A stretch of 64,000 nt of DNA, from positions 1 through 64,000 of the forward strand of contig JAFRPG010000029.1 in assembly GCA_017429265.1 (NCBI GenBank). The letters run 5' to 3'. Below the pieces are notes generated by a model. That model worked only from the letters and a program-made list of their open reading frames with translations, was not told the origin of the DNA and made no database searches. Source of the DNA: Clostridia bacterium (GTDB lineage Bacteria; Bacillota; Clostridia; Christensenellales; Aristaeellaceae). The stretch's first letter is position 1. Each line of letters begins with the position of its first letter. Shown here one piece after another: positions 1 through 4,584 of the stretch. Made by a program: the position numbers and the translations under genes.

Positions 1-810
1 GCAGACGCCCGGCATCGGCCAGCGCTGCATGGAAGAGGCCTTCACGAGCCAGTTCATCGGCAAGGGCGGCAAGGTGATGCTGGATGCGGGCATCGACGCG
101 GTGACCGGCGCGACGGTCACGAGCACGGCGGTCGTGCGTGCGGTGAATGAGATCCTCAAGAACGCGGCGGCTCCCGCGGAGGAGAAGAAGGAACCCGAGC
201 AGCCCGCAGAGGCGGCGTCCCTGACGGCGACGAAGCCCGGCTACAACGACGCGGACGTGACGGTATCCCTGGAACTGGACGGAAACGGCGCGATCACGGC
301 GATCACGGTGGACGCGACCTCGCAGACGCCCGGCATCGGTCAGCGCTGCATGGAAGAGGCCTTCACGAGCCAGTTCATCGGCAAGAGCGGCAAGGTCATG
401 CTGGACGCGGACATCGACGCGGTGACCGGTGCGACGGTCACGAGCACGGCGGTCGTGCGTGCGGTGAATGAGATCCTCAAGAACGCGGCGGCTCCCGCTG
501 AGGAGAAGAAAGAACCTGAGCAGCCCGCAGAGGCGGCGTCCCTGACGGCGACGAAGCCCGGCTACAACGACGCGGATGTGACGGTGTCCCTGGAACTGGA
601 CGGCACCGGCGCGATCACGGCGATCACGGTGGACGCGACCTCGCAGACGCCCGGCATCGGCCAGCGCTGCATGGAGGAGGCCTTCACGAGCCAGTTCATC
701 GGCAAGAGCGGCAAGGTCATGCTGGACGCGGACATCGACGCGGTGACCGGCGCAACGGTCACGAGCACGGCGGTTGTGCGTGCGGTGAATGAGATCCTCA
801 AGAACGCGGC
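1..810 (+). repeat. 321-bp tandem coding repeat, nearly identical copies
   Basis: The sequence starting at base 1 recurs at 322 and again at 643 with only scattered third-base or single changes. The period is 321 bp (107 codons). Each unit encodes one FMN_bind domain plus an Ala/Glu/Pro linker. The array continues upstream of the window, so the full copy number is unknown. Confidence 0.95.
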
Positions 811-3049
811 GGCCGCACCGGCTCAGCCTGAGGAAACGGCAAAGCCCGCCGAGGAAGCGAAAGAGCCCGAAGAGGTCTATGTCTATCAGGCGATCGAGGG
901 CGGCATCACCGCTTCCAACACAGGTTTCTCCGGAAAGGATATCACTGTCAGCCTGAAGCTGAATGAGGAAGGCAACGCCATCGCGGAGATCGCGGTGGAT
1001 GCCGGCAACGAGTCGTCGCCCGCCGGCCGCAGGTGCGCAAGCCCGGAATTCACGGATCAGTTCATCGGCAAGGGCAGCCTCCTGACGCTCGGCGAGGAGA
1101 TCGAAGCCGTGTCCGGCGCGACGATCACCGGCTCGGTGGTCGTGCGGACCGTCAACGAGATCCTGGCGCGTGAGATCCCCCAGCCCGAGGTGAAAGCGGA
1201 AGCGGCGGAGCCCGCCGAGCGGCCGGAAATCCAGCCCGCCCAGCCGCTGCCGGTGCGCGAACCGCAGCCGGCCCGGACCCACACGGAAGAAGTCACGCTG
1301 ACGGGCAAGGACGTCGGCTTCACCGGCAATGACATCACCGTCACCCTGACCGTCGACACCGACGGCAGCATCAAGACGATCACGGTGGATGCCGGCAATG
1401 AGACAAGAGACCTCGGTCGGAAATGCATGGAGGCGGCCTTCACCGACCAGTTCGTCGGGAAGAGCGCGCCGGTCGTGTTCGGCGAGGATGTGGATGCCGT
1501 GACCGGCGCGACGATCACCAGCGCCGCCGTCGTCGGCATCGTGAATGACATTCTGGACCGCTGGCCCCCGAAGCCCGGTGAGGAGGAGCAGCCCGCGGAA
1601 GCGGCCGCTCCGGAAGCAGAGGGCTTCATCACAGCGACAGCCACGGGCTTCTCCGGCAAGGACATCACCGTGCGCGTGAAGCTCAACGAGGAGGGCACGG
1701 CCATCGCGGAGATCGCGGTGGATGCAGCCGGCGAATCGGCTGACTACGGCCGGAAGTGCGGCGAGGCGGCCTTCACGGACCAGTTCATCGGCAAGGGCAC
1801 TGTGCTGGCGCTCGGCGAGGACATCGAAGCGGTGTCCGGCGCGACGATCACCGGCGCGGCGGTGGTCAGGGCCGTCAATGAGATCATAGCGGCCGAGATC
1901 CCCCAGCCCGTGCCGCAGGCCGCGGCCGAGCCCGCTGAGCGGCCGGAAATCCGGCCCGCCCAGCCGCTGCCGGTGCGCGAGCCGCAGCCGGCCCGTACGC
2001 ATGACACCGTTGTCACGATGGCCGGCTGGGACGCCGGCTTCACCGGCAAGGACATCATCGTGACCCTGACCGTCAACACGGACGGCAGCATCGGTGGGAT
2101 GACCGTGGACGCATCGGGCGAATCCGAGGATCTCGGCCGCCGGTGCGCGGAGACGGCCTTCACGGACCAGTTCATCGGCAAGGGCGCGCCGGTCGTGCTC
2201 GGCGAGGATGTGGATGCCGTGACCGGCGCGACGATCACCAGCGCGGCTGTCGTCGGCATCGTGAATGACCTGCTGAACAGCTGGCCGCCGGAGGTTCAGA
2301 TGAAAGAAAACAGCGCGCCTCAGGACGACGAGGGGCTCATCACCGCCTCCAACAAGGGCTTCTCCGGCCAGGACGTGACCGTCAGCCTGAAACTGAATGA
2401 GGAAGGCACTGCCATCGCGGAGATCGCGGTGGACGCGGCGAACGAATCGGAGGGCTACGGCCGGAAGTGCGGCGAGGCTGCCTTCACCGATCAGTTCATC
2501 GGCAAGGGCGCTGTTCTGACCCTTGGCGAGGATATTGAGGCGGTGTCCGGCGCGACGATCACCAGCACGGTGGTCGTGCAGACCGTCAACGAGATCCTGC
2601 TCAAGGCGATCCCGCAGCCGGCCGAGGCGACCGTGGAGGCCGCCGAACCGGCCGAACGTCCCGAGATCAAGCCCGCGGAACCGATTGCCAAGCCTGAGCC
2701 GAAGCCCGCGCAGACCTATCCGACCGACGTCCGTGTGACGGGCAAGGGCGCCGGATTCGTCGCCGGGAAAGACATCACCGTGATCCTGGTCATCGACACG
2801 AACGGTGCCGTCAGGGAGATCACGGTCGACGCAGCCGGCGAGACGGAGGACCGCGGCCGCAAGTGCGAGGAAGAGGCTTTCACTGCCCAGTTCATCGGCA
2901 AGAGCGCCCCGATCATCCTCGGTGAAGACGTGGACGCCGTGTCGGGTGCGACGATCACCAGTGCGGCTGTCGTCCGCATCGTCAATGAGCTGCTGAACGG
3001 CTGGCCGCCTGCCGCCGACGCGGCTCAGACCGCGGAAGCCGCGGAATAA
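2..3049 (+). CDS. Multi-domain FMN-binding (covalently flavinylated) repeat protein, 5' end outside window
   Basis: The frame is open from base 2, so the N-terminus and any signal peptide lie upstream. At least nine FMN_bind domains are visible (the first is partial), each with a TGAT or SGAT motif in the context D/E-A-V-[ST]-G-A-T-[IV]-[TS]. This is the ApbE-type flavinylation site, where FMN is attached to the Thr by a phosphoester bond. The acceptor Thr codons are at 113, 434, 755, 1121, 1511, 1844, 2231, 2555 and 2951. Domains 1-3 are nearly identical. Domains 4-9 form three dyads of about 720 bp, alternating an FSGKD-type and an FTGKD-type domain, joined by Pro/Glu/Ala-rich linkers. Related proteins act outside the cytoplasm in electron transfer; that role is inferred here. 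No transmembrane segment or sorting signal is visible at the C-terminus. ApbE is not in the window. Confidence 0.9.
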   Translation, partial: QTPGIGQRCMEEAFTSQFIGKGGKVMLDAGIDAVTGATVTSTAVVRAVNEILKNAAAPAEEKKEPEQPAEAASLTATKPGYNDADVTVSLELDGNGAITAITVDATSQTPGIGQRCMEEAFTSQFIGKSGKVMLDADIDAVTGATVTSTAVVRAVNEILKNAAAPAEEKKEPEQPAEAASLTATKPGYNDADVTVSLELDGTGAITAITVDATSQTPGIGQRCMEEAFTSQFIGKSGKVMLDADIDAVTGATVTSTAVVRAVNEILKNAAAAPAQPEETAKPAEEAKEPEEVYVYQAIEGGITASNTGFSGKDITVSLKLNEEGNAIAEIAVDAGNESSPAGRRCASPEFTDQFIGKGSLLTLGEEIEAVSGATITGSVVVRTVNEILAREIPQPEVKAEAAEPAERPEIQPAQPLPVREPQPARTHTEEVTLTGKDVGFTGNDITVTLTVDTDGSIKTITVDAGNETRDLGRKCMEAAFTDQFVGKSAPVVFGEDVDAVTGATITSAAVVGIVNDILDRWPPKPGEEEQPAEAAAPEAEGFITATATGFSGKDITVRVKLNEEGTAIAEIAVDAAGESADYGRKCGEAAFTDQFIGKGTVLALGEDIEAVSGATITGAAVVRAVNEIIAAEIPQPVPQAAAEPAERPEIRPAQPLPVREPQPARTHDTVVTMAGWDAGFTGKDIIVTLTVNTDGSIGGMTVDASGESEDLGRRCAETAFTDQFIGKGAPVVLGEDVDAVTGATITSAAVVGIVNDLLNSWPPEVQMKENSAPQDDEGLITASNKGFSGQDVTVSLKLNEEGTAIAEIAVDAANESEGYGRKCGEAAFTDQFIGKGAVLTLGEDIEAVSGATITSTVVVQTVNEILLKAIPQPAEATVEAAEPAERPEIKPAEPIAKPEPKPAQTYPTDVRVTGKGAGFVAGKDITVILVIDTNGAVREITVDAAGETEDRGRKCEEEAFTAQFIGKSAPIILGEDVDAVSGATITSAAVVRIVNELLNGWPPAADAAQTAEAAE

Positions 3050-3126: not shown

Positions 3127-4584
3127 ATGATTTTGCGCAAAGCACGGGAGAGCGACCTGCCTGCGCTGTTTGAGTTGTTCCGTATCACGAGCAACCACAT
3201 GACCAGCCAGGGCGTGGAGCACTGGCACTGGGGGGAATACCCGAACGAGGAACTGGTGCGGCAGGATGTGCTCGACGGAAGACTCTGGTGTCTGTACGGC
3301 GAGCAGGGCATGATCCTTTCCGTCACCGTCAGCACGGAGACCACCCCGGTCTACAGCAGCGTCAACTGGCTCTTCGGCATCCGGCCCGGCGTCTTTCACC
3401 GGCTGGCCGTGCATCCTGCCCTGCAGAGTCAGGGCCTCGGCCGCCAGGCGGTGGCGGATGTGGAGACGATCCTGATCTCCCTCGGATGCGACTGCCTGCG
3501 CTGCGACGCACAGGTGACCAACGCACGCGCGGACCGCTTCTATATGTCGCTCGGCATGCGCCGCGCGGGCACAGCCTATCTGGAGGACCGCGATGCGGTC
3601 TATATGGGCTATGAGAAGCGCCTGACGGAGGACTGCCCGCTGCTTCCGATCGCCATGCAGCCGGCCTTCCGCGGCGGGAAGCTGACGCCGTGGGGCGGCG
3701 ACCGCCTCCGGAGCGTGTACGGCAAGGAGATCCCCGAGGTGCCCACCGGCGAGAGCCTGGAGGTCAGCTGCATCCCGGGCCTTGAGTCGAAGGACAGCAC
3801 CGGCGTGCCGCTGACCGAGCTGATCCGCCTCTACGGCGGCAAGCTGGTGGGACGGTACCAGTTCGGCGCCTTCCCGTTGCTGCTGAAGATCATCGACGCG
3901 CAGGAGCCTCTGTCCGTGCAGGTCCACCCGAACGACGAATACGCGGCGAAGCATGAGCACGGGAAACTCGGCAAAACGGAGGCCTGGCTGATCCTTGACG
4001 CGCCCGAGAACGCGGAACTCGTCTACGGCATTCAGCCCGGGACAACGCTGGATCAGCTCAAGACGGCCTGCGAGCACGGTGCGGACGTGGAGCCGCTCCT
4101 CCGCCGGGTGAAGGTGAAGCGCGGGGATGTCTGCTACATCCCGGCCGGCTGTGTCCATGCGATCGGCGCAGGCATCATGCTCTACGAGATCCAGCAGTCC
4201 TCGGACATCACCTACCGCTTCTATGACTGGAACCGCGTGGATGAGCACGGCAAGGGCAGGGAGCTTCACCTGAAGCAGGCCCTCGCGGTGACGGACCCGG
4301 AGGATGCGCCCGAGCCGATCCCCGCCCCGGAGATCCCGGTCGCACGCGTGCTCGACAAGACCTATTTCACCCTCGACCTGCTCCGCCCGCGGCGCGATTC
4401 GTCGGTCCACATTCCGCATATCCGGGACTTCGGTCTCCTGACGATGCTCGACGGCGAGTTGACGCTGTGCTGGGAGCAGGTGGAGCGCACCCTGAAGAAG
4501 GGCGAGTCGCTGTTCATCCCGAATGCAGCACCGCCCATGATCCTGAGGGGGGACGGCCAGGCAGCGCTGAGCATGCCGAGATAA
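3127..4584 (+). CDS. manA: GNAT acetyltransferase - class I mannose-6-phosphate isomerase fusion
   Basis: This is a 485-residue fusion. Residues 1-165 form a GNAT fold, with the acetyl-CoA loop around HRLAVHPALQSQGLGRQA (91-108). Residues about 178-485 form a type I phosphomannose isomerase, which interconverts mannose-6-P and fructose-6-P. The zinc-site motif QVHPND is at 265-270, a Glu in KTEAW at 285, and CYIPAGCVHAIG lies further on. Each half is close to the length of the free-standing enzyme, with no frameshift at the join. The start has the upstream purine run AAAGGGG. The GNAT substrate is unknown. The gene appears monocistronic: terminators flank it and the next gene converges. manA refers to the C-terminal half only. 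Confidence 0.88.
   Translation: MILRKARESDLPALFELFRITSNHMTSQGVEHWHWGEYPNEELVRQDVLDGRLWCLYGEQGMILSVTVSTETTPVYSSVNWLFGIRPGVFHRLAVHPALQSQGLGRQAVADVETILISLGCDCLRCDAQVTNARADRFYMSLGMRRAGTAYLEDRDAVYMGYEKRLTEDCPLLPIAMQPAFRGGKLTPWGGDRLRSVYGKEIPEVPTGESLEVSCIPGLESKDSTGVPLTELIRLYGGKLVGRYQFGAFPLLLKIIDAQEPLSVQVHPNDEYAAKHEHGKLGKTEAWLILDAPENAELVYGIQPGTTLDQLKTACEHGADVEPLLRRVKVKRGDVCYIPAGCVHAIGAGIMLYEIQQSSDITYRFYDWNRVDEHGKGRELHLKQALAVTDPEDAPEPIPAPEIPVARVLDKTYFTLDLLRPRRDSSVHIPHIRDFGLLTMLDGELTLCWEQVERTLKKGESLFIPNAAPPMILRGDGQAALSMPR

Follow-up and report, generated by a model that had tools for sequence, protein, structure and literature searches.

The open frame at the start of the window (by which we mean the whole stretch of 64,000 nucleotides that was analysed) encodes the C-terminal part of an RnfG protein to which further flavin domains have been added in tandem, an assignment based on sequence, fold and gene position. 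The front half of the protein was found on another contig of the same assembly, C108, and both fragments very likely belong to one gene. The RnfG identity, which was absent from an earlier sequence-only reading of this DNA, names the electron donor of the flavin array, namely the Rnf complex.

In the window, the frame runs for 1,015 aa to a stop at 3049 with no start codon inside contig C1, the start of the window being also the start of that contig (the assembly comprises 109 contigs and 3.02 Mb, and is 92.8% complete). The FMN_bind profile PF04205 matched this ORF in nine separate stretches (E = 1.3e-97; score 320.9 bits, cut-off 22). A whole-genome search returned 14 FMN_bind matches, nine of them placed in the window ORF, four at the extreme end of C108 and one on contig C32, which excludes chance as the origin of the nine. 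The first of them lacks its N-terminal part because contig C1 starts inside that domain. The acceptor Thr is intact in all nine motifs and is always encoded by ACG (Table 1), with EAVSGAT instead of the consensus DxxSGAT at three of the nine sites. Both profile and motif reading thereby bear out the nine consecutive domains, each with its acceptor Thr, that had been read from the letters alone, while the proposed 'nine or more' sites on one chain become at least 13 once the front half on C108 is counted. An equally long minus-strand open frame opposite the gene was discarded as a shadow ORF arising from high G+C, and profile matches to TonB_C and RimI, below cut-off, were put down to chance. 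A Cadherin_5 match after domain 3 (E = 0.0011) also fell below cut-off and was taken as a mere hint of a small beta domain, the structural model being of low confidence there.

The frame on C108 begins MSEKNAKKPLLPAFAILAIIAVAAALILGFTNK, encodes four FMN_bind domains and is cut by the contig end within the unit LTATKPGYNDA, which is the unit repeated at the window start. Assemblies commonly break in tandem arrays such as the one formed by the 321-nt units there. The smallest join of the two parts amounts to 601 + 23 + 1,015 = 1,639 aa with 13 sites, and the copy number may be above 13, since near-identical units can collapse in assembly. Direct DNA comparison of C108 and C1 for an exact end overlap of at least 15 bases found none, and the join is based on synteny and repeat identity, not on reads. 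One uninterrupted multi-FMN gene lies in each of four relatives (G001, G010, G011 and G005) between a gene for a NusG domain II protein (NusG_II) and a GNAT-PMI gene, with apbE identified on the NusG_II side in three of the four (G001, G010 and G011). The flanks of the intact gene are those found on C108 (NusG_II, apbE) and in the window (GNAT-PMI), and the position of the GNAT-PMI gene after the multi-FMN gene in the four relatives indicates that C108 and C1 hold two halves of one gene. The upstream extension for which the sequence-only reading had called is supplied by C108, with an N-terminal helix, a full-length RnfG domain and three further sites. The downstream neighbour is itself a fusion of a GNAT acetyltransferase with a type I phosphomannose isomerase, and the fused gene is kept beside the multi-FMN gene in relatives. 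Contigs ending inside a multi-FMN array were also met at L058, L059, L060, L061, L116, L122 and L125; these repeated breaks imply that short-read assemblies tend to truncate such genes and that surveys under-count their sites.

Table 1. Coordinates of the features discussed; positions refer to the window unless a locus on C108 is given.
Feature	Position	Strand	Acceptor motif	Thr codon	Basis or remarks
RnfG front: start codon, membrane helix, RnfG domain, sites 1-4	C108, L017 1804..2	minus			ORF and FMN_bind matches
C-terminal part of multi-flavin RnfG, sites 5-13 or later	2..3049	+			1,015 aa; ORF and PF04205
Tandem array, 321-nt units, 2.5 copies, 96% matches	1..813	+			repeat analysis; assembly broke inside array
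FMN_bind domain 5, N-terminal part missing at contig start	2..160	+	DAVTGAT	113-115	
FMN_bind domain 6	236..481	+	DAVTGAT	434-436	
FMN_bind domain 7	557..802	+	DAVTGAT	755-757	
Super-repeat, two domains, ~720 nt, three copies (A-B, A-B, A-B)	896..3009	+			linkers 25-29 and 47-51 aa
FMN_bind domain 8 (type A)	920..1168	+	EAVSGAT	1121-1123	
FMN_bind domain 9 (type B)	1316..1555	+	DAVTGAT	1511-1513	
FMN_bind domain 10 (type A)	1643..1891	+	EAVSGAT	1844-1846	
FMN_bind domain 11 (type B)	2033..2278	+	DAVTGAT	2231-2233	
FMN_bind domain 12 (type A)	2354..2599	+	EAVSGAT	2555-2557	
FMN_bind domain 13 (type B)	2753..2995	+	DAVSGAT	2951-2953	
GNAT plus phosphomannose isomerase in one ORF, downstream neighbour, outside the system	3127..4584	+			Pfam and synteny

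The protein was identified from its first domain and from gene position. The rnfG model TIGR01947 aligned with residues 16-185 over positions 3-185 of its 187, and domain 1 alone gave E = 7.9e-25; in bits, the score was 88 for domain 1 alone and 153.1 for the four-domain front half, the curated cut-off being 102. Domain 1 aligned over its full length, membrane helix included, with the RnfG of C. tetanomorphum (7zc6_G; E = 8.9e-13), and its predicted fold matched the RnfG of A. woodii (9eri_G) with a Z of 16.2 over 178 residues. The N-terminal membrane helix occupies residues 13-54 of the predicted model, so that at the true N-terminus, where the sequence-only reading had looked for an export signal, there is a membrane helix in RnfG topology. 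The genes rnfC, D, E, A and B form one operon on contig C27, each above its NCBIfam subfamily cut-off, with no rnfG in it and with rnfD overlapping rnfE. No other RnfG candidate was found in the 92.8% complete assembly, whose sole other FMN_bind gene encodes an ABC permease. Within the genus, rnfD was detected in ten genomes, and each of these likewise has an empty rnfD-rnfE slot. In other family members the slot is filled by a single-domain RnfG (181-190 aa); in G036 an eight-domain multi-FMN protein lies exactly between rnfD and rnfE, and G009 carries rnfC-D-E-A-B-NusG_II-apbE-multiFMN, all on the same strand. Since the slot is held in relatives either by a single-domain RnfG or by the eight-domain version, the multi-FMN protein is identified as RnfG, and comparison of the family members suggests a step from an operon-encoded RnfG with one domain to a long RnfG whose gene lies elsewhere. 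The records of these relatives name them as Clostridia, Clostridiales or Christensenellaceae, and several come from rumen samples.

An apbE gene (328 aa, E = 1.5e-79) lies directly upstream of the multi-FMN gene and is one of two copies in the genome, the lack of any apbE having been named beforehand as grounds for giving up the covalent flavins. The motif [ST]GAT occurs in all 13 domains of a chain that starts with a membrane helix, the first motif position being D in ten and E in three, and according to a review (PMC12052999), mutants that had lost the motif Asp were only slightly affected in flavinylation. By alignment to the SaFMN3 and CbFMN4 structures (PMC10339131), from which the roles of the site residues were transferred, all 13 domains keep the acceptor Thr, an aromatic residue expected on the si face (Tyr or Phe, in the loop that packs against the flavin, that of domain 5 being read from the C108 end) and Ser or Thr where contact with N5 is expected. 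On this basis, all sites are probably flavinylated, with FMN most likely loaded by the adjacent ApbE. In the same alignment, the residue expected on the other flavin face differs by domain (Ile, Tyr, Leu, Ala or Arg, and Phe in domain 1), a variation that could tune the flavin potentials. Alignment to CbFMN4 domain 1 also places one Cys in each of domains 2-13 four residues after the flavin-stacking position, a feature seen in 57 of the 68 domains in the genus versus 31 of the 113 in the rest of the family; this Cys may affect the flavin. Altered acceptor motifs common to tandem copies appear in relatives (L112 9666-12869; L058; L057; L055), namely [ST]RAT in six repeats, TNAT, SNAT and TSAS, and a G-to-A change in the motif is reported to halve flavinylation (review PMC12052999). 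The second apbE (L019 6778-7821, minus strand, G000:C88) lies away from any FMN_bind gene, and RnfD would be a candidate substrate. Most loci of this kind, among them L017 2862-3227 (minus strand) and 23 others, also encode a small exported NusG domain II protein next to apbE or to the multi-FMN gene, and three cysteines of this protein (C-x4-C ... CLP) are near-invariant; no paper linking this kind of protein to flavinylation, ApbE or RnfG was found in the open-access literature.

As to how the protein works, we think it probable that this RnfG of the ferredoxin:NAD+ oxidoreductase Rnf uses a flexible flavin tail to carry electrons from the membrane to an outside acceptor. Domain 1, held by the N-terminal membrane helix, would be the ordinary RnfG flavin station at the outer membrane face, followed by at least 12 further FMN_bind domains, which flexible stretches rich in Ala, Glu and Pro connect and which the neighbouring ApbE would load with FMN. 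Electrons arriving on domain 1 could pass onward to RnfD or, by contact, into the tail, where hopping between neighbouring tethered domains would carry them along. The tail would thus branch from the usual U-shaped route through Rnf towards an outside acceptor, an arrangement that Meheust et al. 2021 (PMC8238504) had already proposed for multi-flavinylated RnfGs. A genome search for an FMN_bind reductase found none. The genome's only other FMN_bind gene encodes an ABC permease of the FtsX/MacB type (L018 4293-5801, minus strand, G000:C32) with an FMN_bind domain (DGISGAT) within its outer part, and adjoins P19 and FTR1 iron-transport genes; clusters of P19 with an FMN-binding gene are known from the literature. 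This permease is a possible candidate for the electron recipient.

The most serious competitor, which we still consider unlikely, is that the RnfG tail serves as an electron reservoir that evens the flux between ferredoxin and NAD+ and has no outside acceptor. Up to two electrons per flavin, about 26 in all, could be stored, and in the model the flexible tethers would allow any domain to swing to domain 1. The only multi-FMN protein measured, SaFMN3, showed a single potential of -184 mV for its three flavins (PMC10339131); a single potential means that SaFMN3 has no built-in downhill direction, which would suit storage, as would the failure to find an outside FMN_bind reductase in the genome. 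However, storage alone leaves unexplained the very different array lengths in close relatives and gives no reason for an array that reaches away from the membrane.

The history of the array bears on a different proposal, that only domain 1 matters and that the remainder is a tolerated by-product of tandem amplification with little use. A tree built from 213 domains placed each of the 32 copies of domain 1 closest to a domain from another genome, and 93 of the 119 domains numbered 4 or later (in the genus, 45 of 48) closest to one from their own, from which it follows that domain 1 was inherited vertically and that the tail was amplified or homogenised separately in each lineage. The window protein itself retains two amplification units, one of 321 nt (one domain) and another of about 720 nt (a two-domain pair in three copies). 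The frequent duplication and homogenisation evident in those 93 of 119 domains, the drift of the motif to TRAT, TNAT or TSAS in some relatives and the fact that a single-domain RnfG is enough in other family members would all fit a by-product. On the other hand, every motif of this protein is intact (13/13), and dN/dS between repeats stays below 1, ranging from 0.03-0.12 in the young units through 0.28-0.41 in the older pairs to 0.56 for domains 2 vs 3, values (0.03-0.56) which indicate that the protein sequence is being kept. The acceptor Thr is also nearly invariant across 98 domain triples, and multi-domain RnfG recurs in many genera; we therefore regard a tail of little use as improbable. 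Complete orthologues in the genus have 9, 9, 9 and 11 domains, no locus with more than 11 domains occurred among the approximately 30 examined, and no intact frame exceeded 1,530 aa among the domain-1 matches listed. The present RnfG would consequently be among the longest of its kind, a ranking that is provisional, with many other copies cut by contig ends.

Linkers and folding speak to the physical nature of the array, which the sequence-only reading had pictured as a flavin wire by analogy with multihaem cytochromes. The window linkers measure 25-51 aa and are rich in Ala, Glu and Pro, and that between domains 2 and 3 has just 10 aa. AlphaFold predicted well-folded domains (mean pLDDT 87) in an undefined arrangement (pTM 0.47), with parts of the linkers below 50, and gave no confident arrangement with fixed-distance packing between flavin domains. 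Such a model fits better with a flexible chain of flavin beads than with a rigid wire of fixed cofactor spacing. A beads-on-a-string pattern has been described for such proteins (Huang et al. 2024, PMC11334425), and no crystals were obtained of SaFMN3 or CbFMN4 at full length, a failure that their authors blame on flexibility (PMC10339131). A rigid wire in which adjacent flavins keep a constant tunnelling distance, like the packed haems of multihaem cytochromes, could draw on the many redox cofactors of a single chain and on the short linker between domains 2 and 3, but the undefined arrangement in the model, the long linkers in the window and these published observations make it very improbable. 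The wire part of the analogy is thus not upheld by the predicted beads on disordered linkers, although tethered domains that touch could pass electrons all the same. Least credible of all, to the point of being nearly negligible, is that window and C108 fragments derive from two separate multi-FMN proteins, the window protein then not being RnfG: they do lie on separate contigs that share no exact ends of at least 15 bases, but one fragment has no stop and the other no start, both end in the same repeat unit, a single uninterrupted gene with the same neighbours exists in G001, G010, G011 and G005, and the genome holds no third FMN_bind fragment to complete two genes.

Multi-flavinylated proteins with up to 13 sites have been reported, including multi-flavinylated RnfGs in RNF clusters, some of them from Christensenellales (Meheust et al. 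2021, PMC8238504). This survey agrees with the earlier remark that multi-site proteins were already known from genomes; the kind has been known since 2021, and the very long RnfG array is a new example of it. Like those RnfGs, the protein described here is the G subunit of an Rnf complex and contains several FMN_bind domains; unlike them, its gene lies outside the rnf operon with NusG_II and apbE genes of its own, its sites number at least 13, and a multihaem domain is absent. Neither half of the chain has a CxxCH haem motif, and the flavin/haem RnfG of the Christensenellales type was accordingly rejected for it. Over its full length, domain 1 shares membrane helix, fold and acceptor site with the RnfG of C. 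tetanomorphum (7zc6) and A. woodii (9eri), yet these end after one flavin domain, whereas our chain continues with at least twelve. Two smaller proteins that have been produced, SaFMN3 and CbFMN4, bear three and four covalent FMN, respectively (Tong et al. 2023, PMC10339131; 8p2a, 8p2b). They resemble our protein in their tandem FMN_bind domains and flexible linkers, and domain 3 is similar in fold to each of them (Z 8.8 and 9.8), but they are described as secreted, are encoded beside a flavin transferase, were not presented as Rnf subunits and have fewer sites. Multihaem cytochromes share with the chain the general concept of a single polypeptide that bears many redox cofactors beyond the membrane; unlike them, the chain has no haem motif, and its cofactors would sit on separately folded, loosely tethered domains that are not closely packed. 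In the open-access literature, we found no longer tandem FMN-binding array and no description of an rnfG that has left the rnfD-rnfE slot throughout a genus, of a recurrent NusG_II-apbE-rnfG locus, or of a vertically inherited domain 1 versus a lineage-specific tail.

With its 13 or more sites, the protein matches or surpasses the highest number published, which is 13. Beyond the number, an orphan flavin array becomes a subunit of a well-studied respiratory complex with a named electron donor, and the RnfG identity makes long-distance flavin transfer testable in one purified complex. The family moreover offers a natural series of 1, 8, 9, 11 and 13 or more domains in one subunit for asking what role array length plays. 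We tentatively suggest, as a less than even possibility, that Rnf in this genus may act as an electron outlet, in which an RnfG chain of at least 13 flavins, amplified anew in each species, would link the energy-conserving ferredoxin:NAD+ enzyme to outside acceptors without haem. If the branch off the Rnf path is real, Rnf could give anaerobic bacteria of gut and rumen a way to export electrons via flavins alone.
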